From contig CM037587.1 of NCBI GenBank assembly GCA_021018995.1, forward strand, positions 15,005,366 to 15,069,365: a stretch of 64,000 bases of DNA. Reading direction: 5' to 3'. Source of the stretch: Chloranthus sessilifolius (lineage: Eukaryota > Streptophyta > Magnoliopsida > Chloranthales > Chloranthaceae). The position numbers and the translations under genes were made by a program. Under the pieces are notes generated by a model, which was not told the origin of the DNA, ran no database searches, and saw only the letters and a program-made list of their open reading frames with translations. Shown in pieces: positions 2,556 to 60,513 of the stretch (position 1 is the stretch's first letter; each line of letters opens with the position of its first letter).

Positions 2556-3316
2556 GTGAGGTCTTGTATCAGAAGCATCAGTTGTCTTATGTATCAAAGG
2601 ATCCAGCGGGAATAAAAGAAGAAGGATACTTGATAGACAGCTGATTTTCTCCTTCTCTGAGTTTGTACTTCTTATGAGAAACCCTTTTTTGAAAACTCTG
2701 TAAATGGCAAAAATGATGTATTTGAATTTGTTTGAGAATGGGTATTTTTAGTTCATCTTCCTGTCTCTGCTATTTCTGGAGATTTCTTTTCTTTTCTCTT
2801 TTTGCCAAGATTGTATTTGAAGCTTTTGTAGGATGGGTTCCAATTTGAAAAGAAAATAAGGGAGTGATTCCTGGCTATGCACTCGTTCCCATAATCGAGA
2901 CCATGTATTTCGTTCTTCTTTTTTGCAGTGGAGTGGTACCTGTAAAAAGGAAGCAGTTAGATGATGAGTTTTAGGTATTCCGATTTTGAAATCGGGGGTG
3001 CTTTTGTAGGATTAAAGAGTGACTCCCCTTTTGCAGGCGGGGCTTGTCCAATAATTCTAAGCACAGGTTACCTAAAAGAAAAAAATTTCTTCTCCCCCTC
3101 TTCTCCTCTCTCATTTCTTTCTGGGTTTTTGTTCATGCGTACATCAGATGTATGCATGGCTTAAATATAAAACAGTGGTTGTTAAAGCCCGAGAATTGTT
3201 ATTTTTCACTTTATTTTCACTTGGGTATTGTTTTTGCTTCAATTTTCTCTCTCCTTTTTTTTGGAGGATGAATCCATCGTTTTACATTGATTTGTGATCC
3301 CTCGGGGTGCCTTTGT

Positions 3317-4227
3317 ATGACAATGGACCCACTTTATGACCCTAGTCTTTCGGGGGAAGATGGGGTTTTCATACTTCCCTCTTTGGGTATCGGGCCCAGA
3401 TTTCTTAAACAATGGTTCGGTAGATTAAATGCAGGCGAGCTTGTAGGCTTGAGTCAGCTTGGGCTTGCTTGTCTCCCCTCCTTTCTTGATGTGCCACCTT
3501 TTTGGGGCGTTGTTCATGCGGCGGTCTCGTATTGGGATGCGGTTCAATTTGGTGCTTGGGAATTGACGCCGACCCTTGAAGAGATGGCTACTTTGTCGGG
3601 ATTGAGGCTCCATCTCGGCCTCGCCAAGGTGGTATCGAAACTGGGCTATGCCAAGGTTGTTCATACGACCCTAGGCTTGAACAAAAATGAATATGAGAAA
3701 AGCCTTGTCGGAGGGCCCACCATGTGTTTGGTGAATTTCCTTAGAGAGATTTTTGGTGATGAAATTCTACGAAAACTGCCAATTCAGAATATTCACAATG
3801 TGAACGCTTTTGCCCTTTGTCTTCTTTCGGAGGTCCAATTCTATATAGGGGGAGAGAGTTTCTCTCTTTCATTATGTGATGTGCTAACAGAGCTTGAAAA
3901 GGGTCGATCCATTGTGCACTTTGTGTTGGCCGAGCTATATCGAGGCTTAGATGCCTTTGCTTCGAGAACGGTGGAAAGCTTTCGGGGGTGCCCAATTCTT
4001 CTTCAGATCTGACTGGGTGAGCACCTTGCCATATTGGGTGTCGTGCCTCGCTTTGATGTGGTCCGAGGGGAAGTAGCTCGTTACTTTTTAGGCCAATGTT
4101 TCAAGTTGCCTCAGGGGAATACACACGAGATGCGCCTTTGGCTAACTGAGGTTGAGCTGGTATGGAGGCTTCTATGGCTTGACAGGACCTTTCCAATAGT
4201 GCGATATCAAGATCATGAGGGTATTAC
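3317..4227 (+). pseudogene. DUF7745-like antisense ORF, first part (split by the Tekay insertion)
   Basis: This ORF runs antisense to the Tat pol. It resembles the plant DUF7745 / mobile-domain family, recognised from memory: VSYWDAVQFGAWELTPTLEE, then VNAFALCLLSEV, then ILAE-like helices ending FRGCPILLQ. The first in-frame ATG is at 3317, with a second at 3323; the open frame extends a few codons further up without an ATG. An in-frame TGA at 4010..4012 breaks it, but the same frame continues to 4227. There the Tekay LTR begins, and the remainder is at 16409..16655. Family members have no established biochemical role; they are common passengers of plant transposons. Confidence 0.7.
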
Positions 4228-6638
4228 TGTAACAGCCCGGATTTCTGCACCCAGAAACCCGTGCCATTAGGATCATACTCTGGATGATCCCGGATCGATC
4301 ACACGTGTCCGCGCATATAGCGGAAGCTAGGTGGACACATCCGAGCAGCGGTAGTCTGAGTCAAACAATTTCTACACTAAATACACGTCAACAATATTTA
4401 AATGTAAAGAAAAACATACACATTTCCAAAAAGGAACCAAGAAGAACCATCGGTGATGGACGTACATCACCCAAACAATGGTTCCCGATAGTGGTTCCGA
4501 AATGGAATGTGGACTAACATAAAATAAGTAAATGTAGAACTATATTTGTTTATACAAAGGTGGCCACCAGGCACACAGTAATCCAAAAGATCAAAAGTAC
4601 AAAATGTCGGGCATCAATACCCAGACTACGGGTAAAACTCGTCCGCCTGGACGTCCGTCTCCTCGTCCTCTGCCTCGGCCTCGGGATCCGCCGATGAAAG
4701 TCCGGGTCACTCTCGTCTTCGCAGCTCGTCTCGAACCTAAAAGATTTGAAAGCGGGGTGAGCTACATCCTAGCTCGAGAAGAATTTCAATTAATTTACAT
4801 CTAAATTATTAAACATGATTGAACATATCTTAGATCGATAAGTGAAACAAAGCTGAGCAGATATAGATTGATGCTCAAACATGCAGAAATCGAATGCATA
4901 ATCGGCAAAAGTAAATGAACTTGAATTAGCAAGATGCTTATGCTTATTAGATTTAAATGACTTAAATCATACATATCTCTAACTTAAGTAACTCCCGTGT
5001 ATATATATCAGTGGTAGCGATTGTCGATAGGAAACCCAACCAATCGTCGTTCAATGAACAATTTTCAGGAATGCAATAATGCCCCACATGGAGTGCATAT
5101 TTTGCCGAGGATTTTCAAGCAAGCACATTGTGCAAAGCGGATATACCGAAGTCGGTGGGGATCGTCTGAATATTAAACCTCAAATCAAATACATACTTAT
5201 TACCTCATGAATCAGATTATCAGAGCAGATTATCAGAGCAGATTATCAGAGCATATGCAAAGAACAGAAACAGATATCAGAATACGGGAATTAGAGTTTA
5301 ATGCATATGCAGGCATGCTTTCGAAAATCAGAGATAGAATACAATGTTAAGATATCATGCAATTAAATTTAGATACACTTTAAGTTGAATTTTCCCCTAC
5401 CTCAGATCAGTTTATCTTCTAGGCAAATCCAAAGCTTTTACAACGTGTCAGGGTTTATCCTATACCATATGCACAGTACATTAAGTGTTAGGAACGTCAG
5501 AGAACTACCCGGCACAATATCCGGGGTGTCTACTTCATGAAGTCAAGACAGGCAAAAACAGGGGTGAGTGATCGATCACCACCCACTATAGATCGATCAC
5601 CACCCACTGTAGATCGATCACCACCTTGGTGATCGATCACCAACCTTCCTGTAGATCGATCACCACCTTGGTGATCGATCACCAACCTTCTTGTAGATCG
5701 ATCACCACCTTGGTGATCGATCACCAATAATGATCGATCACCCTCGGCCTCAACTTCTCAACTCTGGGTCTCTGTTCCCCATAAGCTTATACAGATTGAT
5801 CGAACACCAGCCCTTGGTGATCGTTCCTCATCCCACAGTGATCGATCACCACTCTTTGGTGATCGATCAAAAGAAGCTGTCATTAATGGAGTTCACCTTC
5901 CTTCCATTTTTGCTCTCTCTCCATTAATGGTTGTGCAATCACCATTAATACCTCATAAACACACCCTTTAAACTACTCATTTAACCCTATTTAACCTACA
6001 CAACTCACCTTGTTCGAGGGTTTCTTGGGTTTCCGGCAATGACTCGGAAGAGGGTTTTCAAACCTAGATCTCGGAGCTCCTCCTCGATCCGGGTCCGGCG
6101 AGAAGCTCTTCAGCTCTGGTTCGACAGATCAAGGTCTCTCACACCAATCTTAAACCCCAGGTAACTCAATCACTTAGGTCTAGCTCCTCTAGCTTAGAAA
6201 TCCCTCATCTTCTCTCTTGCTAACCCTTTTCTTCTCTCACAAGGGATCTCTTTCAAACTTTCTTAGCACAGATCTCCAGTTAATGGAGCAGTTAGGGCAG
6301 GGGATGAAGGAGAAGAAGAGTGGAAGTCTCTCCTCTCTTGTCTCCCCTTCCTTCCTCTATAAGCTACCTCTCAACTCAGAATCCCTGTTTTGCCCTTGGT
6401 ATCTGTTCCGGTGTGAAGCATGTACACAGTTGCTTCCGCGCAATGTGTTTCACCGACCCTCTACACATCTCAGATCTAGATGAAATTTGACACGTGATCT
6501 CATCTCACCACAGTGCCACATTATTTAAACTAATATAACCCAAAAGTTTTTTTTTTTTTTTGAATAAACCTTGGTTTCCGTGCCGGGCACGTAGATCAAA
6601 GCAGTCAGGCTCGTGTTCTAATTTTCGGGGTCATTACA
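4228..6638 (-). repeat. 3' LTR of the Tekay element
   Basis: The plus strand starts TGTAACAGCCCGG and ends GGGGTCATTACA. It pairs with 13887..16403. It holds a GATCGATCA palindrome array (5570..5869), the hairpin motif GAGCTACATCCTAGCTC (4759..4775) and a poly(T) run near 6546. It is 106 bp shorter than the 5' LTR, largely because array units are missing. Confidence 0.95.
5570..5869. repeat. GATCGATCA palindrome array in the 3' LTR
   Basis: I count eleven exact GATCGATCA cores plus two decayed ones (GATCGAACA, GATCGTTCC). Most occur as TGATCGATCACC or TAGATCGATCACC, spaced about 20 to 24 bp. The 10-bp TGATCGATCA form is a perfect palindrome with a central CG. The array lies on the upstream (U3) side of the LTR. 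Confidence 0.9.
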
Positions 6639-6639
6639 T

Positions 6640-6653
6640 TATCCCCCCCTTAG
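6640..6653 (-). other. polypurine tract of the Tekay element
   Basis: The plus strand reads TATCCCCCCCTTAG right after the LTR end, so the sense strand has a purine run (AAGGGGGGGAT) just upstream of the 3' LTR. This is the expected place and composition for the plus-strand primer of reverse transcription. Confidence 0.8.
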
Positions 6654-6790
6654 GAATTTTCGTCCTCGAAAATGTCTAAGAGGTGTATCCAGGGATTTAG
6701 TAGTTCTAAGACTCAGGTACGGAACTAATGTAGGACTGTCAGACTATACATAATGCAGAGATAATTAAAAATGCTAACAGAGTTTATATA

Positions 6791-8323
6791 TCACGCAGGA
6801 ATAATTAAAGTATTAACAGAATTTATGCGATATGCTATGAAACATAATAGAGATATGTATACATATAAATGGCTAATAAGGTATAGTAGTATGGTAATAC
6901 CTGCGGGGACATGGGATGGGCCGGCCTCATCAGGTGTCGGTCTGCGGGGACGCGGTGGCGGTGAATGATAGTCACGTGGATCCACCCTGTGCAGGCGGGC
7001 GTGTGCGATCATCGGCGTGGACGTCGTGGCATAAAGGTGCTGCATGACTAGCTCATGCATACCCGCGTGATAGTCCAGACGACGATGCATCTGTCTCTGG
7101 AACGCCTCAACGCCATCCAGCCTCTCGTGGATGCGGCGGTTGCTCCCCACCAACTCGCGAAGCATCGCGGTGACATCGTCGGAGGAAGACGGTGGGGGAG
7201 GGGGTGGTGCGTGACGAACTGATGGGCGGGGTGGAACAGGGGCTGGTTGGGCAGATGGGTCTGGCTGGGGTGGTGGGTCCTGTGGTGGCTCGCCCTCTGT
7301 GGTCGCGGGCACATCAGGGACTGAACCCTCTGCTACAGCAGGGGGAACGGGCTCAGCCGCGTCCTCCTCCTCCTCAGGAAGACGCTTAACCAACAAGTTG
7401 TAGCTCTTCGTCCAGTCTTTCAGGTGAAAGACTTTAGTGTTGTTTTCCAAACGAGGCTCGTGGGGAGCCAAGACGTAGGCCTCGCGTAGGGCAGCATACT
7501 GCTCTACGAGCTTGGTGACGAGGCGTGCATAGGGGATCTGTTTCTTTGCTCCAGATCGCCCCTTCTCAGACATCAGGTCATTGGCATTTATGATGCCATC
7601 AATGACCAGATCTGCCATAGAGAACCAACGGTTCTCATAGGCGGAGAATAGTGCTTGTTGCACTACTCCAGTCCGTGAGGACTTGTGCAGGAAAGGGTTG
7701 AGGGCACACTTGATGTAGGTATCAAGCATCCACAACCGATCAGGTAGTTGGGCCCTAGAAATGGATTGGCCCCTACCGTGTTGGCCTTGGGTCATCTTGG
7801 TGACCACATCGGCATAGGGTACCTCCTTAACGTACGGAGGCTCGAGGCCACAGGTCTCGATGTACGCGGACGGGCATTGAAGTGCCGCCGCGACATGAAA
7901 ATGGTTAAATTTATATTCAAGGCCATCGATGGTTGTGACGAGTCGATGGCGACTATCACCCCATTTGAGGTTTTGAAAGAAAAGCCGCACAATACGTGGG
8001 CAATAATGGTCATGGAAGGGCGCGAGCAAGGGTTTAAGCCCTAGCTTTTGTATGTAACCCTTGGCCCAAACCATTTCGGGTCGGTCCTCGTAGAGCGAGG
8101 AAGCAAAAACGTATTCGGGTAAGAAGGTTTTAGAAGCCCACCACGGTTTGGGGACTTCACGCTCAATGGGGAGCGGCGCGGATGCGGGAACGGGTGGGGT
8201 AGAGATCGAAGCCGGTGCCATGGGTGGCATGGACGGCGGGGGAACGGAAACGATGGGCGGTACCGGAGTACGAGCCCGGGATGTGGGTACCTTACGCGAA
8301 GGATTCTTCGTGCGTGGTCCCAT
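6791..8323 (-). CDS. extra ORF of the Tekay element: plant-transposon-protein-like domain
   Basis: This is an intact ORF of 510 codons from the ATG at 8323; an in-frame ATG at 8407 would add 28 residues. The start at 8323 is preferred because it gives MGPRTKNPSRK, similar in character to the MAPTKK start of the SIRE extra ORF. The layout is a Pro/Ser-rich disordered start (about 1..65), a folded domain (about 70..300, with RLWMLDTYIKCALNPFLHKS and a following ENRWFSMADL helix), an acidic Pro-rich linker, a coiled coil (TAMLRELVGSNRRIHERLDG onward), and a hydrophobic tail of about 35 residues. The central domain resembles the 'putative plant transposon protein' family (Pfam PF20167, from memory). 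It lies in sense between pol and the 3' LTR. No enzymatic motif was seen; the role is unknown. Confidence 0.8.
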   Translation of the reverse strand: MGPRTKNPSRKVPTSRARTPVPPIVSVPPPSMPPMAPASISTPPVPASAPLPIEREVPKPWWASKTFLPEYVFASSLYEDRPEMVWAKGYIQKLGLKPLLAPFHDHYCPRIVRLFFQNLKWGDSRHRLVTTIDGLEYKFNHFHVAAALQCPSAYIETCGLEPPYVKEVPYADVVTKMTQGQHGRGQSISRAQLPDRLWMLDTYIKCALNPFLHKSSRTGVVQQALFSAYENRWFSMADLVIDGIINANDLMSEKGRSGAKKQIPYARLVTKLVEQYAALREAYVLAPHEPRLENNTKVFHLKDWTKSYNLLVKRLPEEEEDAAEPVPPAVAEGSVPDVPATTEGEPPQDPPPQPDPSAQPAPVPPRPSVRHAPPPPPPSSSDDVTAMLRELVGSNRRIHERLDGVEAFQRQMHRRLDYHAGMHELVMQHLYATTSTPMIAHARLHRVDPRDYHSPPPRPRRPTPDEAGPSHVPAGITILLYLISHLYVYISLLCFIAYRINSVNTLIIPA

Positions 8324-8536
8324 GGTATAGATTTGGGTTAAAATGCGAAGAAAGGAATCAAAGATCAAGGAAATGGAGGATTTACCGGTGAATGAGGCGA
8401 CGCACACTCAAATCGAGCCGGAGAACGAACGAAATAGCCGGAGAATAGTCGGAAAATGGTTGGGGAAGGTCGGAAGTCGAAAACCCCTTTGGTCTCTTGC
8501 AGTTGCGATGTTGCAATGACCCTTCGGACTCCCCCT

Positions 8537-8546
8537 CTCTTATAAC
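8537..8546 (-). promoter_or_regulatory. putative TATA box of the extra ORF
   Basis: The minus strand reads GTTATAAGAG, 14 bp downstream of the nearest palindrome of the adjacent array and about 215 bp upstream of the ATG at 8323. The stretch between (8324..8536) looks like a 5' leader. It includes a donor-like CACCGGTAAATC on the minus strand near 8384, so a leader intron is possible. This suggests the extra ORF is transcribed from its own internal promoter. Confidence 0.5.
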
Positions 8547-8560
8547 TTAACGCCCATTGG

Positions 8561-8742
8561 TGATCGATCACGGCCTCTTGGTGATCGATCACCAAGGAAT
8601 CTTTAAGTTCCAAACCCGCTTCATTGATCGATCACCAAGTGTGTAGATCGATCACGGGGTCTCTTGTAGATCGATCACCACTGGGTGTAGATCGATCACT
8701 GCCTATTGGTGATCGATCACCAGCTTGGTGTAGATCGATCAC
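8561..8742. repeat. GATCGATCA array upstream of the extra ORF
   Basis: There are eight exact GATCGATCA cores in 182 bp, within TGATCGATCAC or TAGATCGATCAC contexts, the same motif as in both LTRs of this element. The array lies between the chromodomain end (8932) and the putative TATA box of the extra ORF. It is not an LTR fragment, because the sequence between copies differs from the LTR array. Confidence 0.9.
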
Positions 8743-8931
8743 GGCTGACAGGAACACCACATTTCATCTGTTCAATCTCCCTAATATTGACGGTCTGGAT
8801 TTTGAGACTACTGATTCATACACGCCATATAAAGTGTTCCAAAAAGAGAAATTCATCAAGTATATGCTCACACACCAATTTATAATCACGGCAACGAATT
8901 CCTAGATGAAGTACTGAGACTTACCTTCTCA

Positions 8932-9156
8932 TCAGGTGAACAGATGCGGATACTGTTCACGGATTTCGGTTGCTCTCTCCCAAGTAGCTTCGGTGTCGGA
9001 ATGATTTCTCCACCTAACTAGTACCAGAGGGATTAATTTAGTCCGCAGGACTTGATGTCGACGATCTAAAATAGCAATCGGTTCCTCAATCGTCGTCATA
9101 TCCTCCTGAAGCTCTATCGGTTGGAAATCCAAGACGTGAGTCGTAATGGCGCGCAA
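8932..9156 (-). pseudogene. integrase tail with chromodomain (Tekay)
   Basis: The translation contains PIAILDRRHQVLRTK followed by VLVRWRNHSDTEATWE and a C-terminal helix ending at a stop at 8932. The V-RW--H---E-TWE pattern is the chromodomain core found at the end of chromovirus integrases, where it is thought to steer insertion toward marked chromatin. It is out of frame with the preceding integrase segment, so this copy is broken. It overlaps the end of the upstream segment. Confidence 0.8.
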
Positions 9157-10180
9157 AGATGGATACGTGGAATATGTTATGCATGCTTGCTAACTGTGGT
9201 GGTAAGGCGATCCGATATGCTACCTCGCCAACTCGTCCAAGTACTTCAAATGGTCCAATGTACCGAGGACTTAGCTTCCCGTGTTTCCCAAAACGCATGA
9301 CGCCCTTGATTGGCGAAATTTTCACAAACACCTTGTCTCCAACCTGAAAACAAGGGTCAATTCCTTCGTAGTTAAATTTTAACCATGGTCATATCATTAA
9401 TGTAATTGATTATACCTGAAATTCTACTTGTGTTCGGTGAAGATCGGCATAGCTCTTTTGGCGACTTTGGGCCATCTTCAACCTTTCACGACATTTCATC
9501 GCTTGGGTACTATCTACCATTTCTGGTCCCAAGACAAGCTTCTCGCCGATTTCTTCCCAGTTCAATGGAGATTTGCATCGACGTCCATATAAGGCTTCAT
9601 AAGGTGCCATCCCAATGCTCGACTGATAGCTGTTATTATACGCGAACTCAATCAGAGGTAAGTGCTGATCCCATGAGCCATGAAAGTCTAACATACATGC
9701 TCGCAACATATCCTCTATTATCTGGTTCACTCTCTCAGTCTGCCCATCTGTCTGAGGATGAAACGCTGAGCTGAACTCTAATTTTGTACCCATGCCTTCT
9801 TGGAACCGTCGCCAAAACTGCGACGTATACAGAGGATCTCTATCACACACGATACTGACGGGTATTCCATGTAATCGAACTATTTCTTTCAAATATAACT
9901 CGGCTAGTTTATTGGCTGTGATTGTAGTCCGATATGGTAGGAAGTGTGCAGATTTCGTCAAACGATCAACAATAACCCAAATTGCATTGTTCTTTCCCAG
10001 TGTACTCGGTAATCCTAAAATAAAGTCCATAGAGATGGCTTCCCATTTCCATTCTGGTACTGGCAAGGGTTGTAACAAACTCTTTGGATTCCGATGATCT
10101 ACTTTCACCGCGCATCAAACACCGAGAAACATACTCCGCCACATCCTTCTTTAATCCTCTCCACCAAAAACTTCGTTTGA
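9086..10180 (-). pseudogene. integrase (Tekay), broken
   Basis: The core (about 9410..10108) has WKWEAISMDFILGLP, then VCDRDPLYTSQFWRRF and FHPQTDGQTERVNQ, so the first two Asp of the DDE triad are visible with the expected context. The third acidic residue follows in the QTDGQTERVNQ region. The C-terminal segment (9086..9331) has KLSPRYIGPFEVL and VSIFARH. The N-terminal zinc region near 10108..10240 and the join near 9340..9410 carry frameshifts or stops. It would insert the cDNA copy. Confidence 0.85.
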
Positions 10181-10184
10181 GATC

Positions 10185-11700
10185 TTAGTACATCTTGGTG
10201 CTACCCGGATGTATAGCATACGTAGATTTATGCGCTTCTTCCAAAATTGTGTCCTTTAGATCTTTTGTATCCGGTATGCATGTCCGATCTCGAAATAGCA
10301 AGGTGCCATCATCCTTAATAGAAAAATCAGGCCTTATCCCATTGATCACATCTCTTCTAATCGTCATGAGCTCGTCATCGACCATTTGGAGTTTACGTAT
10401 ATTATCAAACAACGTGGGCCGTATCACAATGGTGGCCATCAAAGTACCTGAACCCTTAACATCAATCAACGTATCACATAAGGCCAGGTCTTCCAATAAA
10501 TGCCACCTTTGCACTCTGGTGATCAAATGTGCCAATTGAGCTGAAGACTTCCTGCTCAAAGCATCCGCCACCACATTGGCTTTTCCAGGGTGATACTGGA
10601 TGGAACAATCGTAGTCTTTTAAGAACTCCATCCACCTGCGCTGTCGCATGTTCAGGTCCTTTTGTGTAAACAAGTACTTTAGGCTTTTGTGGTCGGTGTA
10701 GATGTCAAATGTCTCACCGAATAAGTAGTGCCTCCAAATCTTCAAGGCAAAGATTACCGCAGCCAACTCTAAGTCATGAGTCGGATAATTCTTTTCATGC
10801 TCCTTCAGTTGTCTAGAGCCATATGCGATAACCTTCTTGTGCTGGTTGAGGACGCAACCTAACCCACTATACGATGCGTCGCTGTAGATAGCAAAGCCTC
10901 CTCTGCCAGAAGGTATAGCTAGCACTGGTGCTGTAGTTAGACGCGTCTTCAATTCCTGGAAACTCTTCTCGCATTGTTCCGTCCAATCAAACTTAGCACT
11001 TTTCTTTGTGAGCTGAGTAAGCGGACTCGATAGTTTAGAGAATCCTTCTACAAACCGCCTGTAGTACCCTGCCAAACCAAGAAAACTACGGACCTCTGTC
11101 ACTGTCTTAGGCTGTTCCCAATTCACAACCGCCTCGATCTTTGTGGGATCTACCGTTATACCTTTTGCGGAGACAATATGGCCTAAGAAACTCACTTGGT
11201 TCAACCAAAACTCGCACTTGCCGAGCTTTGCGTATAATTTGTGTTCTCTAAGGGTCCGCAAAACCACATGTAGATGTTCTTCGTGCTCCTCCTTTGTCTT
11301 GGAATAGACAAGAATGTCGTCTACGAAAACCACCACCGACTTGTCCAAGTGTGGTTTAAATATACGGTTCATCAGGTCCATAAATGATGCGGGTGCGTTC
11401 GTCAATCCAAATGGCATAACTAAGAACTCATAGTGCCCATATCTGGTTCTGAACGCCGTCTTCTCCACATCTTCAGCCTTGACCCGTAATTGATGGTAAC
11501 CTGATCTCAAGTCAATCTTCGTAAAGAACCTCGCTCAATTGATCAAATAGATCATCGATCCTAGGAAGCGGGTAACGATTCTTAATCGTCAACTTATTCA
11601 ATTGCCGATAATCAATGCATAAGCGCATTGAACCATCTTTCTTCTCGACAACAAAACCGGTGCTCCCCAAGGAGACACACTTGGCGGATAAATCTTTGTC
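10185..11700 (-). pseudogene. reverse transcriptase and RNase H (Tekay), broken at the N-terminus
   Basis: The long frame 10185..11510 encodes RT motifs [19 protein letters not shown] and [12 protein letters not shown], so the catalytic FVDD is intact. Next comes RNase H with [27 protein letters not shown] and VVADALSRK, then the start of the integrase zinc region. The N-terminal RT part (11510..11700) is present but disrupted by frameshifts and a stop. RT copies element RNA into DNA and RNase H degrades the template. Confidence 0.9.
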
Positions 11701-12372
11701 AAGCGCTTCTGCGTTGCTCTTTCAACTCTTGCAATTTCGTTGGAGCCATCCGACACGGAGCCCTAGATACCGGTTCGTTCGGAGCTAAATTGATTGCAAA
11801 CTCAACCTCTCTAATCGGTGGTAATCCAGGCAATTCCTCAGGAAATACATCGGGATACTCACACACGACGTGAATATCGGATAGCACATTTGTTTCTTCC
11901 CGTTGTTCTTGTAGAAAAGCCACATATCCGCTGCATCCATTCTTCATCATCTTTTCCGCCCGAATCGCGGATATTAACGGGGCCACCTTAGATTTTTCCC
12001 CAAGGAATCTAAATGATCGTCGCTTAGGTGGACGAAAAACCACTATCTTTCGAAGGCAATCCACACTTGCGCGGTACGCGGATAGCCAGTCCATTCCCAT
12101 AATGACGTCAAATCCTTTCATATCCAACAGAATCAAATCTGCCTGTGTTTCGTGTTCTTCCACTGCCACTATCACTGACTTGCACACGGTGAGTGCGTTC
12201 ACAGTATTACCCGTGGGAACTGACACCGTCAAAATAAAGTCTAACTGTTCTGGAGTGGCACCCAATTTCTTAGTAAATTGAGGTCGGATGAAAGAGTGCG
12301 TAGAGCCTGGATCTATCAAGGCTCGTGCTCTGTGAAAGTAAATGTCGCAACTCCTATACAATTTCAGTTCAC
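11699..12372 (-). pseudogene. aspartic protease region (Tekay)
   Basis: RALIDPGSTHSFI is the retroviral-type protease active-site segment in the variant (DPGS) common in plant gypsy elements. It is followed by FDVIMGMDWLSAY, the second conserved segment, and by the linker to RT (EFAINLAPNEPVSRAPCRMA). The protease would cut the Gag-Pol polyprotein. The frame can be entered from a plausible splice acceptor at 12372. Confidence 0.8.
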
Positions 12373-12522
12373 CTATACGCCAATTTCAATGTTATCTCAA
12401 CGTCTTAACTATGCATGCATACATATACTATTTTCATCATAATTACTCAATTAATTTCCTTATTTTCAAAATTCCTAATTCATCATGTCAATAAACCACA
12501 TTCATTGAATTTCAATTCATAC
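12373..12522 (-). other. candidate 150-nt intron between gag and protease
   Basis: On the minus strand the sequence reads CCAAG|GTATGAATTG ... GGCGTATAG|GTGAACTG. It is strongly A+T-rich, full of stops and without protein similarity. Joining 12523 to 12372 keeps the frame (VIQ-G-ELKLYRSCD) between the zinc-knuckle segment and the protease active site. A 150-bp insertion without splice function would look similar, so this stays a candidate. Confidence 0.5.
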
Positions 12523-12790
12523 CTTGGATGACATCATGTCGGAGCATCGATTCTTGATGGACGGCATAAGCTCGACCGTGGACTATTGGTCGAGATGATC
12601 TCTGTGTTGATACCGATCCTGCCCGCTCCTTACTCTCCTCAGGGCAATTCCTAACCAAGTGGCCCATCTTGCCACACCTGAAGCATGCCCCGGTATCTCT
12701 CCTACAATCCTCCGTCTTGTGTGGTTTCCCACACTTTGCACAAATCACGGCCGGAGTAAAGGATGAGATCCTCGAAGGTCCCTGTGTCAC
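12523..12790 (-). pseudogene. Gag zinc knuckles (Tekay)
   Basis: Two Cys/His zinc knuckles are visible: CAKCGKPHKTEDC (CX2CX3HX4C, shortened) and CFRCGKMGHLVRNC (classic CX2CX4HX4C). They bind the RNA genome in the particle. A one-base shift near 12800 puts this out of frame with the gag domain at 12825..13793. Confidence 0.85.
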
Positions 12791-12824
12791 TGAGGCCCCG
12801 CTACCAGAAGATCCTATGAATGAT

Positions 12825-13793
12825 CTAGAAGGTCGCCGCCCTCTGGTAGGAACTAGGACCCGAAGATATCGCCGGTCGAGAGTGTGTAGGGTATCTCGGA
12901 GGTCTAGAAAACCTAGCCCTCTTGCTCTGTTCTGTGTCCTGAGATTGCCCTTGAAACGGTCTCTCTCTCGCCTGCTTGTCTCTCCAAGAAAACTGCTTTT
13001 GATTCTCCTCTTCGGCTATGAGAGCCTTGGCCATGACTCCCTCATACGTCTCCATTTCCCACATGGCGACGTCCTTTTGTAGATTCTGTCTAAGGCCAAG
13101 TTGAAACTTTCTGGCTCTCATCAACTCTGTGGCTACATGCTGAGGAGCAAACCTAGCCAACCTGTCAAACTCCGCTCCATAGTCTCTCACCGACATGGCG
13201 CCTTGCTTCAACTCTATAAACTTCACTTCCCATTGATGCCTCACAATTTTCGGGAAGTATTTGTGGTAAAACACCTCCGTGAACTCCTCCCATGTCCAAG
13301 GAGTGTGAGGGAATTCTCTTTGTCGATTTTGTGACACCGACTTCCACCATGGTCCGGCGTCACCATCAAGTTTGAAAGTGGCCCAACGCACTTTCTCCTC
13401 ATCACTACATTGTAGTACCTCGAAGAGCTTTTCCATCTCTTCAATCCATCCTTCCGCCTCTATGGGATCCGTTTGACCCGAGAAGTTAGGAGGTCTCATT
13501 CTCCTAAACTCCGCAAACCCACTAGGCTGATGGGGTGGTCTAGTTGCCTGTTGAGCCAACGCAGCTATTTGTTGAGCGACGTTGGTAGCTAATGCTTCCA
13601 ACACCTGCTCCATCCTCTCCTCATTTCTTCTTCTTCCTCCTCTTGGTCCCACCGGAACCACATTTGGCTGTGAGAGAAACTCTAAACCCCGCGACGTGAC
13701 CTCTGGCACATCCCTCAGGGGAATCTCTCTCTGTCCTGCTCTACCTCCACTATGCCCTCCTCTGAACTTAGGGCCCATCTTTGATGTCATCAT
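12825..13793 (-). CDS. Gag capsid domain (Tekay)
   Basis: The 322-residue frame starts at an ATG about 80 bases inside the 5' LTR edge. The retrotransposon gag core includes RMRPPNFSGQTDPIEAEGWI, then VRWATFKLDGDAGPWW and the YHKYFPK segment, all typical of plant gypsy Gag. The C-terminal part is rich in Arg, Ser and Pro. The frame ends at a stop at 12825 caused by a frameshift before the zinc knuckles. It forms the particle shell in the cytoplasm. Confidence 0.85.
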   Translation of the reverse strand: MMTSKMGPKFRGGHSGGRAGQREIPLRDVPEVTSRGLEFLSQPNVVPVGPRGGRRRNEERMEQVLEALATNVAQQIAALAQQATRPPHQPSGFAEFRRMRPPNFSGQTDPIEAEGWIEEMEKLFEVLQCSDEEKVRWATFKLDGDAGPWWKSVSQNRQREFPHTPWTWEEFTEVFYHKYFPKIVRHQWEVKFIELKQGAMSVRDYGAEFDRLARFAPQHVATELMRARKFQLGLRQNLQKDVAMWEMETYEGVMAKALIAEEENQKQFSWRDKQARERPFQGQSQDTEQSKRARFSRPPRYPTHSRPAISSGPSSYQRAATF

Positions 13794-13871
13794 TGTAAAA
13801 ACAACAACATTGATCAGTACATAGATTGTGAAAACAATCCTTTCTAAACCCGTAGTTCAACCTACAGTCTA

Positions 13872-13884
13872 GGCTCTGATACCA
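13872..13884 (-). other. primer binding site (Tekay)
   Basis: The minus strand reads TGGTATCAGAGCC two bases from the 5' LTR, complementary to the 3' end of initiator methionine tRNA, the usual minus-strand primer for these elements. Confidence 0.9.
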
Positions 13885-13886
13885 AC

Positions 13887-16403
13887 TGTAACAGCCCGGA
13901 TTTCTGCACCCAGAAACCCGTGCCATTAGGATCATACTCTGGATGATCCCGGATCGATCACACGTGTCCGCGCATATAGCGGAAGCTAGGTGGACACATC
14001 CGAGCAGCGGTAGTCTGAGTCAAACAATTTCTACACTAAATACACGTCAACAATATTTAAATGTAAAGAAAAACATACACATTTCCAAAAAGGAACCAAG
14101 AAGAACCATCGGTGATGGACGTACATCACCCAAACAATGGTTCCCGATAGTGGTTCCGAAATGGAATGTGGACTAACATAAAATAAGTAAATGTAGAACT
14201 ATATTTGTTTATACAAAGGTGGCCACCAGGCACACAGTAATCCAAAAGATCAAAAGTACAAAATGTCGGGCATCAATACCCAGGCTACGGGTAAAACTCG
14301 TCCGCCTGGACGTCCGTCTCCTCGTCCTCTGCCTCGGCCTCGGGATCCGGCTGATAGTCCGGGTCACTCGGTCTGCTGCACGCGACCTCGAACCTAAAAG
14401 ATTTCGAGCGGTGAGCTACATCCTAGCTCAGTAGAAGAATTTCAATTAATTTACATCTAAATTATTAAACATGATTGCAGAACATATCTTAGATCGATAA
14501 GTGAAACAAAACTGAACAGATATAGATTGATGCTCAAACATGCAGGAAATCAGAATGCATAACTGGCAAAAGTAACTGAACTTCGGAATTAGCAAGATGC
14601 TATGCTTATTAGATTTAAATGACTTAAATCATACATATCTCTAACTTAAGTAACTCCCGTGTATATATATCACGTGGTAGCCAGATTTGTGCCGATAGGA
14701 AACCCCAACCAATCGTCGTTCAATGAACAATTTTCAGGAATGCAATAATGCCCCACACATGGAGTGCATATTTTGCCGAGGATTTTCAAGCAACTGCACA
14801 TTGTGCAAGAAACGGATATACCGCCGAGTCGGTGGGGATCATCTGAATATTAAACATCAAATCAAATACATACTTATTACCTCATGAATCAGATTATCAG
14901 AGCAGATTATCAGAGCATATGCAAAGAATGTAAATGTATATCGAATACGGGAATCAGAGTTTAATGCATATGCAGGCATGCTTTCGAAAATCAGAGATAG
15001 AATACAATGTTAAGATATCATGCAATTAAATTTAGATACACTTTAAGTTGAATTTTCCCCTACCTCAGATCAGTTTATCTTCTAGGCAAATCCAAAGCTT
15101 TTACGACGTGTCAGGGTTTATCCTATACCATATGCACAGTACATTAAGTGTTAGGAACGTCAGAGAACTACCCGGCACAATATCCGGGGTGTCTACTTCA
15201 TGAAGTCAAGACAGGCAAAAACAGGGGTGAGTGATCGATCACCACCCACTGTAGATCGATCACCACCCACTGTAGATCGATCACCACCTTGGTGATCGAT
15301 CACCAACCTTCCTGTAGATCGATCACCACCTTGGTGATCGATCACCAACCTTCCTGTAGATCGATCACCACCTTGGTGATCGATCACCAATGAAATTTCA
15401 AAAACTCCCCCCTCTGTCCACATCACTTACTTATACAGATTGATCGATCACCACCTTGGTGATCGATCACCAGACTCATTGTAGATCGATCACCACCTTG
15501 GTGATCGATCACCACCTCGGGCCTCAACTTCTCAACTCTCTGGGGTCTCTGTTCCCCATAAGCTTATACAGATTGATCGATCACCAGCCCTTGGTGATCG
15601 ATCACCAACCCTCAGTGATCGATCACCACTCTTTGGTGATCGATCACCAATGACAGCAAAGCTGTCATTAATGGAGTTCACCTTCCTTCCATTTTTGCTC
15701 TCTCTCCATTAATGGTTGTGCAATCACCATTAATACCTCATAAACACACCCTTTAAACTACTCATTTAACCCTATTTAACCTACACAACTCACCTTGTTC
15801 GAGGGTTTCTTGGGTTTCCGGCAATGACTCGGAAGAGGGTTTTCAAACCTAGATCTCGGAGCTCCTCCTCGATCCGGGTCCGGCGAGAAGCTCTTCACTG
15901 ATTCATCAAGTCTCTCACCAATCTTAAACCCGTAACTCAATCACTTAGGTCTAGCTCCTCTAGCTTAGAAATCCCTCATCTTCTCTCTTGCTAACCCTTT
16001 TCTTCTCACAAGGGATCTCTTTCAAACTTTCTTAGCAGATCTCCGTTAATGGAGCATTAGAGCGAGGATGAAGGAGAAGAAGAGTGGAAGTCTCTCCTCT
16101 CTTGTCTCCCCTTCCTTCCTCTATAAGCTACCTCTCAACTCAGAATCCCTGTTTTGCCCTTGGTATCTGTTCCGGTGTGAAGCATGTACACAGTTGCTTC
16201 CGCGCAATGTGTTTCACCGACCCTCTACACATCTCAGATCTAGATGAAATTTGACACGTGATCTCATCTCACCACAGTGCCACATTATTTAAACTAATAT
16301 AACCCAAAAGTTTTTTTTTTTTTTTTGAATAAACCTTGGTTTCCGTGCCGGGCACGTAGATCAAAGCAGTCAGGCTCGTGTTCTAATTTTCGGGGTCGTT
16401 ACA
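13887..16403 (-). repeat. 5' LTR of the Tekay element
   Basis: It is 2517 bp with the same ends as the 3' LTR. The first about 390 bp (plus strand) are identical to 4228..4617. It carries the fuller palindrome array (15233..15646) and the hairpin motif at 14413..14429. It should hold the promoter for leftward transcription. Confidence 0.95.
15233..15646. repeat. GATCGATCA palindrome array in the 5' LTR
   Basis: I count sixteen exact GATCGATCA cores, nearly all as (T/A)GATCGATCACCA, in three blocks. It is the intact form of the array at 5570..5869. On the sense (minus) strand it lies upstream of the presumed transcription start side of the LTR. Confidence 0.9.
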
Positions 16404-16408
16404 ATTAC

Positions 16409-44398: not shown

Positions 44399-46907
44399 TG
44401 TGACAGCCCAGATTTTCATGCTCGGAAATCCGTGCCATCAGGATTATACTCTGGATGATCTCCAAGACAAATCACGAAGTGTCTGCTCATATAGCGGAAA
44501 TCAAGCAGACACTGTCCAGCAGTGGTAGATCGAGTCATCATAAGGCACTTTAAAAATAGAAAGAAACAATAAACAAAACTTGTATTTAACTACATCAAAA
44601 GAATATACATTCCCAAAAAGGAACCAAGAAGAACCAATAGTGATGGACATCCATCACCCAAACAATGGTTCCTAATAGTGGTTCCTATAGAATGTATAAT
44701 AATATAATAAAAGAAAAATATCTACAGATATAAATACAGAAAGTGGCCACCAGGCACACAATAATCCAAAGTTTATACAAAATCTCTAAAATGAATAGAC
44801 TCGTATACCCAAACTAAGGATAAAAGTCGTCCGCCTGGACGTTAGTCTCCTCGTCCTCTGCCTCAGCCTCTAGATCCGGCTGATAGTCAGGGCCGCTCTC
44901 AGCACCTAAAACTCTCGCCTCAGAACCTAAAATGTTAATGAAAACGAGGTGAGCTACATCATAGCTCAATAGAAGAATTCCAACTAAAATGAATTGAATA
45001 TGCAGATCATGATATCTCAAAACAGGAAGTCAAATCAGAACATGCAAACAGGACGAATCAATCTAATACCGAGCTTTTAAACAGAAGTCGATGTTATGCA
45101 AGTACATGATTAGTGACTTAGATTGTGTATGTTTTCTAACTTAAGAAACTCCCATGAATATATAACACGAAATAAACAGGAATTTACCGATAGGAAACCC
45201 TAACCAATCGTCGTTCACATGAACAATTTTATATTGCAATAATGCCTCATCTATGGAGTGCAATTGTGTCGAGGGATTACAAGTAGATGCACAAGTGTGC
45301 CAGGCTCGGATATACCGTCGGGTCGGTGGGGATCATCTGGTTAAATCATCAAATCATATACACACATAGACCTCACAGATCGAATAGCAGAAATCAGGAG
45401 CAGGTTTCAGAAACAAATCAGAAAACAGAAATCAGAGATAGCAGGAATTTATGATATGCTTACATGCTTGTTAAAACAGAAATCAGGGCACAGATATGAA
45501 ATAAACATGAAATCATACTCAAAAATAGTTTAGGTTGGTTTTCCCCTACCTCATATCAGATCTCTTTCTAAGAAAATTCAAAGCTTTTTAAAGCGTCATG
45601 GTTCGATCCTAGACCATAAACATTGTATACTAAGTGTTAGGCAGGTCAAATGGTTAACTAGTACGGTGTTCAGTATCATTCAACTCACACAACCAAAACA
45701 GGATAAAAACAGGGGTAATTGATCGATCAACACCCTTAGTGATCGATCAATCCTCCTTGTTGATTGATCAATGTCTTCATTGATCGATCAATAACCTAAA
45801 CCTTCTCAAAAGTAACAGAGGTAGTTGATCGATCAATGACCTTTATTGATCGATCAACACCCATCATTGATCAATCAATACCTTAATTGATCGATCAATA
45901 ACTCCCTTTTCTTCATACTTGGGCCTAGCCAAATTAATCGATCACCAGCTTGGTTGATCGATCAATGTGCCCTATTGATCGATCAATAGCCTAAATTTTC
46001 AAATTTCTCACCTTCTGTTCACATTTGTAATTTATACAGATTGATCGATCAATGCCTTCATTGATCGATCACTACACACAAGTGATCGATCAATGCCTTC
46101 ATTAATCGATCAATACCAGTCATTGATCGATCACCCTCTCTATGATCGGTCAATACTCAAGATTGATCGATCAATCCACTAATTGATCGATCAACACCCT
46201 TCGAGCATTGAACATCTAAGAATTTCAGGGTTTCTGTTCCCTTGATACATACACCAACACATATTCAAAGGCTTTCTTTTGCCCAAATTTAAACACATAA
46301 TCTCACCTTTACTTGGGCTCTTTCAGGGTGCCGGCAAAACGATTCGGAAGGGGGTTTTGGATCCGGAACTTGGCTGTATTGCAGGTGTGACCCCACTACG
46401 TAACGTATCGACTCCGATTCAGCACGCGAAGGTCTCACACACACTTAGACTGTACTTGAGCTCATCATATTGAACTCTACATACCCTAACTAAGATTTAC
46501 GCACGATCTCGGTACCTCTAACCCTCTTTCGTCATAGAGCACACTCAAATCTAACCTAGCTACAGATTCTTAGCTCAAGAGTAAGGGGAAGAAGAAGAAG
46601 AATACCTCTCCAGGTCTTTCCCTTCCCTTATAAGCTACCTAAACTGAAATATCTTTGATATTTCAGTTTAGACCCTAATTTGTACTCCGGTGTTAAGCGC
46701 GAACACGGTCGCTACGGTGTAACATGCCGTCTCGATGTCCTACACGACTCGGACCTAAGCGAGAATTCATACGTGAATTCATCTATACAAGGAGTAATAC
46801 TACTTCTTATAATATTATTTTCAAAATTTTAAATATGTCTCGATTTCCATGTCGGACACGCATATCGAAACTGTTAGGTTCTTGTTCAGAATTTTTGGGT
46901 CGTTACA
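44399..46907 (-). mobile_element. solo LTR, sister family of the Tekay element
   Basis: The 2509-bp LTR starts TGTGACAGCCCAGATTTT and ends TTGGGTCGTTACA, with TTTTT on both sides (44394..44398, 46908..46912). It aligns with the Tekay LTR at 4228..6638 in many blocks (AAAAGGAACCAAGAAGAACC, GTGGCCACCAGGCACACA, the GAGCTACATCATAGCTC hairpin) but is clearly diverged. No internal domain remains, so it arose by LTR-LTR recombination. Confidence 0.85.
45720..46194. repeat. TTGATCGATCAA palindrome array
   Basis: I count fourteen exact GATCGATCA cores and about five variants (TGATTGATCA, AATCGATCA, TGATCGGTCA). Most are TTGATCGATCAA, a perfect 12-bp palindrome; the Tekay LTR uses TGATCGATCACC. Position in the LTR matches the Tekay array. 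Confidence 0.9.
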
Positions 46908-51645: not shown

Positions 51646-52110
51646 GGTGGCATGCTATCTTAGAAAATAGAGCTACGTGTTCAAAATCAATGAAAATTTC
51701 ACAATTTAGATTTAGAATGGGTCAATTAGTCGGGTCGGTCAATTTAACCTGGCCAGCCATGGGTTGGATTTGGGTTCAAAGTTTTAAACTTAAAGTGTTG
51801 GATCGGGTAACGTCGAGAGGCGTGCATTAAACGGGTTTGTGAATTTACATCACGTATTTGACCCGATTGGACCCGACCGGATTCTCCCCATTACCTTGAT
51901 GGACCTAAGTTGGCCGAACCTCACCCTACAGATCTGGTCAATTACGCTACAAACCAGTCAAGTCAGTCAAGCGGACATTAAGATCCGCTAAACCTCCAAA
52001 AGTCCTCATCTCACCAGAGTAACGGCTGATACTAGCCCGCGTATCTATAACAAATTCAAATCCACTTCTACCATCCGTACACTTGTCACCTGTCCCGTCG
52101 CTCCTCCTCT

Positions 52111-52118
52111 TATAAATT
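52111..52118 (+). promoter_or_regulatory. putative HMGR TATA box
   Basis: TATAAATT lies 109 bp upstream of the ATG. A transcription start about 30 bp downstream would give a leader of about 75 nt rich in CT (TCTTCTCTTCTGCATCTC), common in plant housekeeping and HMGR genes. Confidence 0.65.
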
Positions 52119-52219
52119 CTCCGAGAGCCTGCACTCAAAAATCAAAAATCCCCCAACCGGCATCTTCTTCTCTTCTGCATCTCTGCTACTTCTGCTCCCC
52201 AACACCTCTCGCATCTCCG

Positions 52220-55200
52220 ATGGAATCTAGCCGGAGATTCCCCGTCACACCTTCCCGTCCGGCACTCAACAAAGGCAGCTATTCCATTTCGCACGTGCCA
52301 ACCCCACGTGCCTCCGACGCCCTCCCACTCCCCATCCGTCTCACCAACTTTTTCTTCTTTTCCCTCTTTTTCCTCGCCTCCTCATTTCTAATGCGCCGTT
52401 GGCGCGAAAAGATCCGTACAACCACCCCACTCCACGTCATCACTATCTCCGAGTTATCGGCGATCATTTCACTCATCGCCTCATTCATCTACCTCCTCGG
52501 CTTCTTCGGCATCGACTATGTCCAGACCTTCATCTCCCGTCCATCATCAGACGGTTGGGATTTGATCGAAGACGAAGAAGATGAAATGGTTAAAGAAACC
52601 TCCCCTTGCATTGTTGAAAAGTCCGACGTTAAATGCATCGATCGAATCCCCATCCCCGCTGCTGATATCAAATCAAACACATCGGATGAGGACTTGATCG
52701 ACGCGGTGGTGATGGGATCGCTGCCGTCGTATGCACTGGAATCGAAATTGGGGGATTGCCAGCGGGCGGCCGGGGTGCGGCGGGCAGCAGTGAGTAGGAT
52801 TACTGGCCGGGAGCTAGAGGGTATGCCGTTGGAGGGATTCAATTATGACTCGATATTGGGGCAGTGTTGCGAAATGCCAATTGGGTACGTGCAGTTGCCG
52901 GTGGGGGTGGCTGGGCCATTGGTGTTGGACGGTCGGGATTACATGGTGCCAATGGCGACAACGGAGGGGTGTTTGGTGGCGAGCACGAACAGAGGGTGTA
53001 AGGCCATAGCGGAGTCGGGTGGAGCAATGAGTTGCGTGATGAGAGATGGGATGACGAGAGCCCCAGTGGTGAGATTTGGCACGGCCAAAAGGGGGGCAGA
53101 GGTTAAGTTTTATGTTGAGGATCCTATTAATTTTGAGTCACTGGCACTTATTTTTAATCGGTAAGTCATTTTTTTTGGGGGTTTTATTGGTATGATTGAA
53201 TTGGGTGTTTTTGTTTTTGTTTTTAATTGGTATTAGTTGTTAGAATTGTATTTTTATTTTTTATTTTCCCTTTTTCTGGTATTTTTGTTTGTGGGTCGAT
53301 CATATTTTCTATCAGAACTTTCTAAATTTATTTTTACTGGTTTGTAAAGTGATGGCTAATCTTGTCTGCATAACCTTTTTTTTTAATTGGTGTATTGAAC
53401 AATTTTCATTTTTTCTGTGTTTCTTTAGTTTTTTTTATTAAGTTATGAGTTTTTTCTGAGTTTGGGAAGATTTCATTGTTCATAGTATTAGTCTTTGAAT
53501 CTATAACTTAAGTATTTATTTCGGTATATATGTTGGTTGCAGATCTAGCAGATTTGCGAGGCTTCAAGGGATTCAATGTGCAATGGCAGGAAGGAATCTC
53601 TACATGAGATTCAGCTGCAGCACTGGAGACGCGATGGGGATGAACATGGTATCAAAGGGCGTCCAAAACGTTTTGGATTTTCTTCAAAACGAATTCCCCG
53701 ACATGGATGTGATAAGCATTTCAGGTAGAGTCCGTGTTTGTAGGAATCTTAATTCCACTCTTGTACGAATTCATATATGTAGGAGTTCATGATCAATCCG
53801 TATTCAAAATTATGCATCATGTTTGGAATATGCTAATGAGGATTGGCTGGATAATATACTTCTGATAATTCACTGATCACCGCCAATTTCGGCCGTGTCA
53901 CTTGAGACTGAATTATACTAAATTTAAGATTTTAAAATTTTTATGATTATATTTTATGAATGACATCTTTATTTATTTAGTTATACTTTTTTAGTGAATA
54001 TCCTGTTGTTAATCCAGATCTGTGTTTTGTTTAAGTTCTCTGACGCTTTTTCATTCAATTTTTGTATATATTTCAAATCGAGCAGGCAATTTCTGTTCCG
54101 ACAAGAAACCGGCTGCTGTGAATTGGATTGAAGGGCGGGGTAAATCGGTTGTTTGTGAGGCGATTATTAATGAAGAAGTGGTGAGGAAGGTTCTAAAGAC
54201 CAGTGTCTCCGCTCTGGTTGAGCTCAACATGATTAAGAACCTGGCTGGGTCAGCAGTTGCTGGAGCGCTTGGGGGTTTCAATGCCCACGCTAGCAATATT
54301 GTCTCTGCTGTTTTTTTAGCCACAGGCCAAGATCCGGCTCAGAATGTTGAGAGCTCTCATTGCATCACAATGATGGAAGCTGTTAATGATGGAAAGGATC
54401 TCCACATCTCCGTAACCATGCCTTCCATTGAGGTAACCTGATCTCCTCGTTCTCTAAAATCATTTATTTTGAATTTTCTTTGTGTTCTAGTTTAAATTTG
54501 TTTTATTTGTTGGGAATACATTATCTTTTTATTACCAAGATATGATTTCTTATATGAAAATTTTGCATTGTTGTTTGATCATATTCATAGCTGAGATGGG
54601 TTTTCATTTCCATTGGTTGTTACATATAAAATATCATAAATCTGGAAGTTTCTCTTTGTTTTCTATTTAAATATCAGGTTTCTTTTTCTTTGGAAAATTC
54701 AGTAGTTTTTGCATTAGTGATTAAGATAATTTTTAGAGATTGACACTCCTTAGAGCCATCAAAGGTTAAGAGAAAGCTTTTAGCCAACTAATTCCCATCA
54801 AAAGTTGACGTCTTTGGATTTCAAGGTTCCATAAATCTGTGACAGTCACATTGTAATGGAATTTGGTAGCTAAAAGGGTATTTCATTAGTGGTGATGCCT
54901 CTAAAACTCCATTAAGCAGATTGTTTTTATCGTCGACCAACACAAACTTCAGTTGTTTCTTCACTGAAATTCTTGTATTGATGTTTCACTTTCATCTACC
55001 TTTTGCTTTTCATGTGCATAAATTATTCTAATGGTTCTGTTTGTTAGTACTTTTGTGTTTGTTTTTCCTCTTCCCTATGAGGATGGGGTGTCAAAACAAG
55101 AAGACTTCCATGGATGGATCTCTCCCATTGATTCCATACACATAAAAGACATAGAGCCCATCACCCTTGGACCACCTCCCATTCCCTAAAAAATGTATAT

Positions 55201-59392: not shown

Positions 59393-60513
59393 TCATGCGG
59401 GACCACCGGTACCATCTCCGCCGCCAGCATCATCCGAATCCTCCGAAGCGCGCCACTCGTCAAACCGCTCTGACAAAGTGATCACGTGAGAATCAACCAA
59501 GGCCACCTTCTCACGCACACCTTCAATAGCACGATCAACAACATCAAAACGAAACAAAAACAAGTCGAGACGCCCAATGACCAAATTCTGAAACTCAAGG
59601 GAAGAAAGAGCACGATCTTGAGTCAGAGCCGATGACGAGGCACCTACAGCAGAAGAGGGTGCTTTGGAAGGATCATTGTGATTATTCCAGGTAGTCTCAA
59701 GAGTGGTCAGGTGGGTCTTAAGAAAATCGGTACCTTGAAGAACAATGGGAGAATGAGCAAGCACATTGATATATGAATTAATGATTTAGGAAAGAATGAT
59801 GGGGAACGGAAGAGCCGACTGGTCGCGTGATTTGAGGCACCGAGCCCGAATCAACTGCCAAATGGTGGTGCAAGCACAAATGGGATGATTAGTGTCGATG
59901 AGCCACATAAGATACACTTCCGGAAGACGAACCTCATTAAGGTTCCCGATCTTCTGCCAGAGGGTGCCAAAGATCAGGATACGAAGGACGTAGAAATGAC
60001 ACTTGAGAAACTTTGCTGGAATAGCCGTTTGAGGGTTCACCCCAGGGGAGACACACACATAATCTACAAGATCCTGCCAAACGAAATCAGGCGAGTCATC
60101 GGTGGACATCGAATCACAAGGATAAAAAACCCCATTGAGATTAAGAGGAATCTCGAGGATCTTCGAAATGGTAGCAGGGGTGACAGAGATTTTCACACTG
60201 GCAACAAAACACACGAGACGTTTCTCTTCATCGAAAGAGACACTCAAGGCTGCATCGTAGTTGGCATAAAATACGGAACCAACTCCTTATACGTCGAACT
60301 ACGAATGGAGAACAGAGACTCCCAACCCCGAGAGAAGATCTTACCAAAAAATGAGTAATCCTCGAGACAACTGAGATCGAAGTGCTGCTTCATTGCGAAC
60401 GACCGAGATTGAAGAAAAGAGAACTTTTTCTCCGCCTCTTCCGAACGAAAAAGAGGTGATGCCACAACACCGGAAGATGAAGCACCGGTATTTTGCTTCT
60501 TGGTTGGAGCCAT
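59393..60513 (-). pseudogene. extra ORF of the SIRE element: plant-transposon-protein-like, broken
   Basis: From the ATG at 60513: MAPTKKQNTGASSSGVVAS (disordered), AEKKFSFLQSRSFAMKQHFD, FFGKIFSRGWESLFSI, then, after a one-base frameshift near 60265, DEEKRLVCFVASVKI and SKILEIPLNLNGVFY, then ILIFGTLWQKIGNLNEVRLP and IWQLIRARCLKS. A stop at 59786 interrupts the same frame, which continues into a coiled coil (LEFQNLVIGRLDLFLFRFDV) and an acidic Gly-rich end. The domain pattern fits the 'putative plant transposon protein' family better than the Tekay ORF does. It lies in sense between pol and the 3' LTR, where SIRE elements otherwise carry an env-like ORF. Confidence 0.75.

Follow-up and report, generated by a model that had tools for sequence, protein, structure and literature searches.

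Arrays of one palindrome in the LTRs and upstream of a conserved extra ORF in a chromodomain Ty3/gypsy retrotransposon of Chloranthus sessilifolius

A chromodomain Ty3/gypsy retrotransposon of Chloranthus sessilifolius carries arrays of one and the same palindrome in its LTRs and upstream of an extra open reading frame (ORF) that is maintained by selection. The element was found in a stretch of 64,000 nucleotides (contig CM037587.1, positions 15,005,366 to 15,069,365), hereafter the window. This arrangement suggests, with slightly better than an even chance, that two co-regulated promoters of the element share one factor; the product of the extra ORF is a plausible candidate for this factor, and a host transcription factor would be about equally likely.

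The element lies on the minus strand and spans positions 4228-16403 of the window, flanked by the 5-bp target-site duplication ATTAC (4223..4227 on the left, 16404..16408 on the right). Its 5' LTR (13887..16403, 2517 bp) is adjoined by the primer binding site TGGTATCAGAGC (13873..13884), which we take to be of the tRNA-Met type, and its 3' LTR (4228..6638, 2411 bp) by a polypurine tract (PPT, 6639..6651). In between, and on the same strand, are gag (12825..13793; PF03732), a protease (11699..12361; PF08284), RT-RNase H (10185..11510; PF00078 and PF17917), an integrase core (9410..10108; PF00665, under the curated cut-off) and a chromodomain (8935..9117; PF00385, E 3e-7) that closes pol. A chromodomain following the integrase is the mark of a chromovirus; the name of the clade, Tekay, comes from the initial annotation and is presumably the right one. 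The pol region is interrupted, the matches to gag, protease, RT-RNase H and integrase being located in separate, broken frames. Between the two LTRs there are 76 substitutions and 27 gap events, in clusters; two of the gaps measure 64 and 47 bp, and no region has a larger share of the gap columns than that of the palindrome array. Such clustered differences with many small indels between 4228-6638 and 13887-16403 may be caused by assembly errors, which would bear also on the broken pol frames. Directly beside the insertion, an ORF on the plus strand (3287-4012) matches the Plant mobile domain (E 1.2e-6). Elsewhere in the window there is an open frame at 51992-53164 that may represent the first exon of a plant HMG-CoA reductase.

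The palindrome TGATCGATCA has 36 occurrences in the window, where 0.09 would be expected. Upstream of the extra ORF, an internal array of eight GATCGATC cores extends over 8562..8740 (minus strand) with a spacing of 20-23 bp and one gap of 43; half of its units show TGATCGATCA in full, and the other four have AGATCGATCA as their plus-strand sequence. As the initial annotation had described, these cores start 14 bp upstream of the TATA-like GTTATAAGAG, counted from this 10-mer, which occupies 8546..8537 on the minus strand. The sixteen and eleven palindromes that it had reported for the LTRs were recovered as well, as the exact cores counted in the arrays, with one isolated core in addition beyond each array: the 5' LTR holds 17 exact GATCGATC cores, 16 of them in its array (15233..15645, minus strand) and one at 13952, and the 3' LTR holds 12, of which 11 are in its array (5570..5868, minus strand) and one at 4293. 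TATAAG is present inside both LTR arrays, at 15568 and 15435 in the first and at 5791 in the second, every time 6 nt past a core and followed by further cores downstream. The internal array as a plain fragment of the LTR was ruled out, since the similarity of the internal region to the LTR is confined to the repeats. A solo LTR of a related subfamily (44399..46907, minus strand) carries TTGATCGATCAA arrays in which 14 sites are perfect and 5 near-perfect; a TATAAA stands 6 nt past a core. TTTTT flanks both of its ends, which is weak as a target duplication because it is located in a run of T.

When the 2.17-Gb genome was searched with the ORF protein as the query, at least 85 matches were obtained, the window included, a lower bound because 84 candidates were scored of 55,336; at least 83 of them (again with the window) span at least 430 of the 510 residues at 77-100% identity, and one more copy was split into two matches (82% and 70%). 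We examined 33 loci, 30 from this search, one of them the window, and three fetched by their place after a pattern search. All 33 ORF-carrying loci have the internal array and also LTR arrays, with 6-15 internal sites per locus, one-mismatch sites counted, and lower numbers in L023 (1) and L018 (3). They split into two subfamilies, A (17 copies, the window among them) and B (16 copies). A second sample, meant to offset the choice by ORF or motif, was taken by the chromodomain. With 4434 candidates and 40 matches listed, the first 15 comprised three loci already examined and 12 new copies, and these 12 made up the sample. Each of these 12 has 7-10 exact cores followed by the ORF start at the DNA level, although L061 is without the first 67 bases of the ORF and L066 matches by DNA only; in most of the 12 the ORF frame appears broken. 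Thus array and ORF co-occur in 45 of the 45 copies examined (33 plus 12), and members with the one and without the other in similar number, which the initial annotation had named as refuting, did not turn up in these samples, picked for their similarity and of modest size next to the family. Since copies were picked by their resemblance to the window, deletion derivatives are under-sampled.

The position of the internal array is also conserved. Counted from the ATG, internal sites stand at about -268/-247 in the majority of A copies and at -265/-245 in B, despite diverged leaders, and an extra site near -173 is present in 16/16 B copies and absent from A. All 14 of the genomic array loci sampled are part of this LTR group or of its internal region. 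Eight were cut out of 17 places found with a pattern that favours A-type flanks; the other six, each at a different place, come from the matches listed within the initial 23 Mb of contig C1. At four places arrays were also found in LTRs with no match to the element proteins within 10 to 13 kb. One LTR (L042, 1500-2623) has a 355-base R-U5 stretch that is 93% identical to the solo LTR of the window, and upstream of R-U5 the two match in the palindrome array only, that is, a different U3 with the same sites. At L054 (2090-7537) two such LTRs lie in inverted orientation with their arrays about 1.5 kb apart.

The conservation of the palindrome points to a site in DNA. Between the units of the four arrays of the window, the 10-bp core is 91-95% identical, a figure somewhat inflated because units were chosen by their core, whereas the spacers are 48-63% identical. 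Of the 998 units in the 33 copies that deviate by one mismatch or none, 955 show an exact core. With L018, L023 and L032 excluded, the CpG of the core is kept in 99.1% of the comparisons in A (14 copies) and 94.5% in B (16 copies), against 79.6% and 70.0%, respectively, for CpGs outside the cores. Neighbouring sites are mostly 19-23 bp apart, about two helical turns. A pair of TGATCGATCA sites at 21-bp spacing is found at 22,243 places of the genome and the reversed control at none, while a looser pair of cores at 26 bp was found at 316 places (control 1), many of those listed being runs of GATC. Taken at the level of sequence, these data indicate that the palindrome is a constrained DNA site.

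The extra ORF (6791..8323, minus strand) is a conserved sense ORF located between pol and the PPT and 3' LTR; its 510 codons are open, as initially annotated, and it is conserved to about residue 472, with a variable tail after this point. Selection was estimated on 18 open copies, four from A and 14 from B; the remainder of the 33 either have a frame closed at an earlier point or lack the exact start motif. In this set, which the use of open copies alone biases towards functional ones, the median dN/dS was 0.15 for 56 A-B pairs, 0.30 for 6 A-A pairs and 0.14 for 91 B-B pairs. Along the protein, the A-B values were 0.46 for residues 1-60, 0.07 for 61-330, 0.32 for the proline-rich stretch 331-400 and 0.10 for 401-472. 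A dN/dS of 0.07 at a dS of about 0.7 would not be expected for an unused frame, and these values led us to reject a chance ORF; they indicate that the ORF is under purifying selection between the subfamilies, whose proteins are about 84% identical. The protein, being maintained by selection, thus serves the element in some way.

Past about residue 474 the tail varies in sequence and in length among the 18 open copies. It starts at a donor-like AGGTATTRC in 17 of the 33 copies (6894-6903 in the window), with a GGTAT variant in 8 more, and may be an intron read-through. For this reason the hydrophobic end of the window copy is not taken as a membrane anchor, and an env-like membrane protein is a possible but not the favoured reading, the hydrophobic tail being variable among those copies. 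Pfam gave no recognised DNA-binding domain in the ORF, the weak match to Transposase_32 (PF20167) standing alone in this respect: 12.4-14.6 bits for the window ORF, under the Pfam cut-off of 45 bits, and, at E up to 1, matches in 16 of the 18 ORF members (best 4.4e-4), a weak resemblance in the central domain. The sole other Pfam family listed for the members was UPF0184 (3/18, best 0.11), and neither DUF1985 nor DUF287 was matched at E up to 1. Outside the genome, neither the whole ORF nor residues 55-340 had a homologue at E up to 0.001 among the public proteins searched; viral contigs contained neither a homologue of the ORF nor the exact 18-base palindrome; matches to PDB were at chance level, and a single-sequence fold of the central domain was uninformative (pLDDT 38). 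The window has another Transposase_32-like open frame on the minus strand (59786-60286, E 9.1e-7), and no palindrome array was among the repeats found near it.

The TATA-like sequence upstream of the ORF is lineage-specific. It was found in 6/17 A copies, in 12/12 further A copies that are close to the window by their chromodomain and in 0/16 B copies, and is absent from 11 of the 29 A copies and all 16 B copies; of the three copies in the chromodomain list that had been examined before, only L017 has it, L018 and L041 being without it. The internal TATA thus characterises some members of subfamily A and not the whole system, so the co-conserved TATA spacing looked for by the initial annotation did not hold. 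In the LTRs, a module GATCAATC is followed within a few bases by TATAAR in 29/33 copies, and in 29/29 of these the TATA is flanked on either side by cores of the array that contains it. The LTR is thus laid out differently from the internal region, and a simple reading of the sites as upstream activators would leave those downstream of the LTR TATA unexplained.

The presumed leader of the extra ORF (8324..8514, minus strand), its start inferred from the position of the TATA, contains no ATG and is 64% pyrimidine. This pyrimidine content is reached by 0.6% of 1713 element windows, and an ATG-free stretch turned up also in 24% of the shuffles and in 4.8% of those element windows, so that the absence of ATG alone is weak evidence and the pyrimidine content is the more unusual of the two. 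The leader has a donor-like CGGTAA in 32/33 copies (8380-8387 in the window). The donor-like sites here and at the conserved end of the ORF may point to introns in the mRNA of the extra gene.

The letters at -3, -2 and +8 to +10 around the core distinguish A from B sites. Over seven columns, the divergence of the flanks between LTR and internal sites was 0.475 bits within A and 0.229 bits within B, and between the subfamilies it was 1.14-1.70 bits. Such an in-step change of the flanks at both arrays fits a shared binder, and an exchange of sequence between the arrays could produce it too. The control of LTR and internal promoter by one factor, as put forward by the initial annotation, is thus backed by the common site, by the co-occurrence of array and ORF and by the co-change of the flanks, and is weakened by the lineage-specific internal TATA. 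In the mechanism that we propose, a single sequence-specific factor would drive two transcription units of the element. The sites of TGATCGATCA type in the LTR lie on one helix face around a TATAAG/A located 6 nt past one of them, which would be the core promoter of the LTR. The second array, whose distance to the extra ORF is about 245 bp, would most likely be the upstream portion of a second promoter, dedicated to this ORF, to which the pyrimidine-rich, ATG-free leader would belong. A factor bound to the palindromic core would then switch on both units together, or shield both from silencing.

Who provides such a factor can be explained in more than one way. One explanation, an appreciable possibility that still falls short of even, is that both promoters are bound at TGATCGATCA by a transcription factor of the host alone, while the extra protein takes part in another step, be it the particle, movement or the suppression of silencing. 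A similar layout in Sireviruses has been discussed as host regulatory sites in the available text of the report (PMC2829016), and the arrays persist in the four LTRs lacking matches to the element proteins, an observation that fits a self-encoded factor alike. Against a host factor alone are the confinement of the arrays to this LTR group in the 14 sampled loci and the different flanks of the sites in coexisting subfamilies. A literature text search for the site named no binder.

The second explanation, which we hold as a tentative one, is that the product of the extra ORF binds the palindromes of the LTR and the internal region and activates or de-silences its own family, in the manner of the VANC proteins though unrelated to them in sequence. 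This idea is favoured by the purifying selection on the ORF, strongest in the central domain and in the C-terminal residues 401-472 in the A-B pairs, by the constant association of array and ORF, by the restriction of the sampled arrays to this group, by site flanks that differ between subfamilies whose proteins also differ, and by the retention of CpG in the sites. VANC targets, too, are described as tandem arrays of short motifs in noncoding regions in the available text of two reports (PMC5735166, PMC10398659). The lack of a recognised DNA-binding domain beyond the weak Transposase_32 match, the chance-level PDB matches and the uninformative fold speak against it, and the co-change of flanks and protein is a single contrast. 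The fuller proposal, in which a chromovirus would encode its own regulator, with the extra protein binding phased TGATCGATCA arrays in the LTRs and before its own gene, a positive loop relieving silencing, and site and protein diverging together between subfamilies, is rather doubtful on present evidence.

An unlikely explanation is that the arrays are passive, spread by slippage and by exchange between LTR and internal region, the ORF being expressed by splicing or read-through from the LTR with no internal promoter. The copy number of the palindrome differs even between the two LTRs of this insertion, the internal TATA is not conserved and the donor-like CGGTAA is nearly constant in the leader, which speaks for such an origin; however, the cores and their CpGs are kept while the spacers drift, the sites are phased at two turns, their distance to the ATG is nearly fixed in both subfamilies, and the internal region is unlike the LTR beyond the repeats. 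Finally, palindromes acting as transcript hairpins, for instance as sources of small RNAs, are very improbable: each unit is self-complementary and some LTR units lie downstream of the TATA, but the complementarity of the site flanks was not meaningfully higher than in shuffles in any of four classes, and was often lower, and helical phasing is a property of DNA.

The architecture that would place two promoters under one factor is known in kind from the Sireviruses, for which the available text of Bousios et al. 2010 (PMC2829016) describes palindromic boxes before the LTR TATA and more of them before the env-like gene, and proposes an internal promoter; among the literature examined, in the portions available, this was the one case of palindromes before an extra gene. 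As in these Ty1/copia elements, the same palindrome is clustered at the LTR TATA and upstream of a 3' extra gene, here with both arrays in 33/33 copies and the TATA module of the LTR in 29/33. In contrast to them, the present element is Ty3/gypsy, with the integrase after RT and followed by a chromodomain, which is not the pol order of Ty1/copia; the motif is GATCGATC and not a CGG-CCG core, one of the 13 Sirevirus motifs in that text, Tnd-1, having ACAATCGATTGT; and the LTR TATA is inside the array, whereas the Sirevirus boxes are described upstream of it. The estimates of dN/dS, the co-change of the site flanks, the helical phasing and the CpG retention go beyond what the available text gives for that case. 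What the present case adds is the occurrence of this layout, built from an unrelated motif, in a Ty3/gypsy element that has a chromodomain, together with the TATA inside the LTR array and the evidence of selection and co-change. In text searches, GATCGATCA together with retrotransposon matched human tumour work only, and the matches listed for TGATCGATCA included no plant retrotransposon by title.

With the VANDAL DNA transposons, as far as the available text of the reports goes, the element shares short element-specific motifs in noncoding tandem arrays whose copy number changes fast (PMC5735166, PMC10398659) and an extra protein in the same element. It differs from them in being an LTR retrotransposon, in its palindromic motif and in the absence of the DUF1985/DUF287 domains reported for VANC (PMC5735166). 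The likeness to VANC, including any binding of the motif or hypomethylation through the extra protein, would therefore be one of functional analogy only. Extra ORFs of plant LTR retrotransposons, according to the available text of two accounts, are common and of unknown function, and include sense ORFs between pol and the 3' LTR, as here; these accounts cover position, orientation and domains, and their available text ties no LTR-shared cis-site to the ORFs (PMC7264820, PMC6317226). The group 2 Tekay elements of sunflower likewise have a conserved extra protein, but their aORF is placed on the 5' side of gag and has no similarity to a known domain, and Transposase_32, the domain weakly resembled by our ORF, is reported for an Athila extra ORF in the available text of the same work (PMC11728184).

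In summary, position, selection and co-change tie an extra ORF to a precise cis-site that it has in common with the LTR, in an LTR group whose site pairs number in the tens of thousands within a single genome. The vague question of what extra ORFs do becomes a direct test, that of the binding of the protein to the site and of its effect on the expression and methylation of its own family. The similar layout of the Ty1/copia Sireviruses, as described in the available text, suggests that elements with a 3' extra gene make convergent use of paired palindrome arrays. If the self-encoded regulator proves true, it would represent an anti-silencing system in an LTR retrotransposon that evolved separately from VANC.
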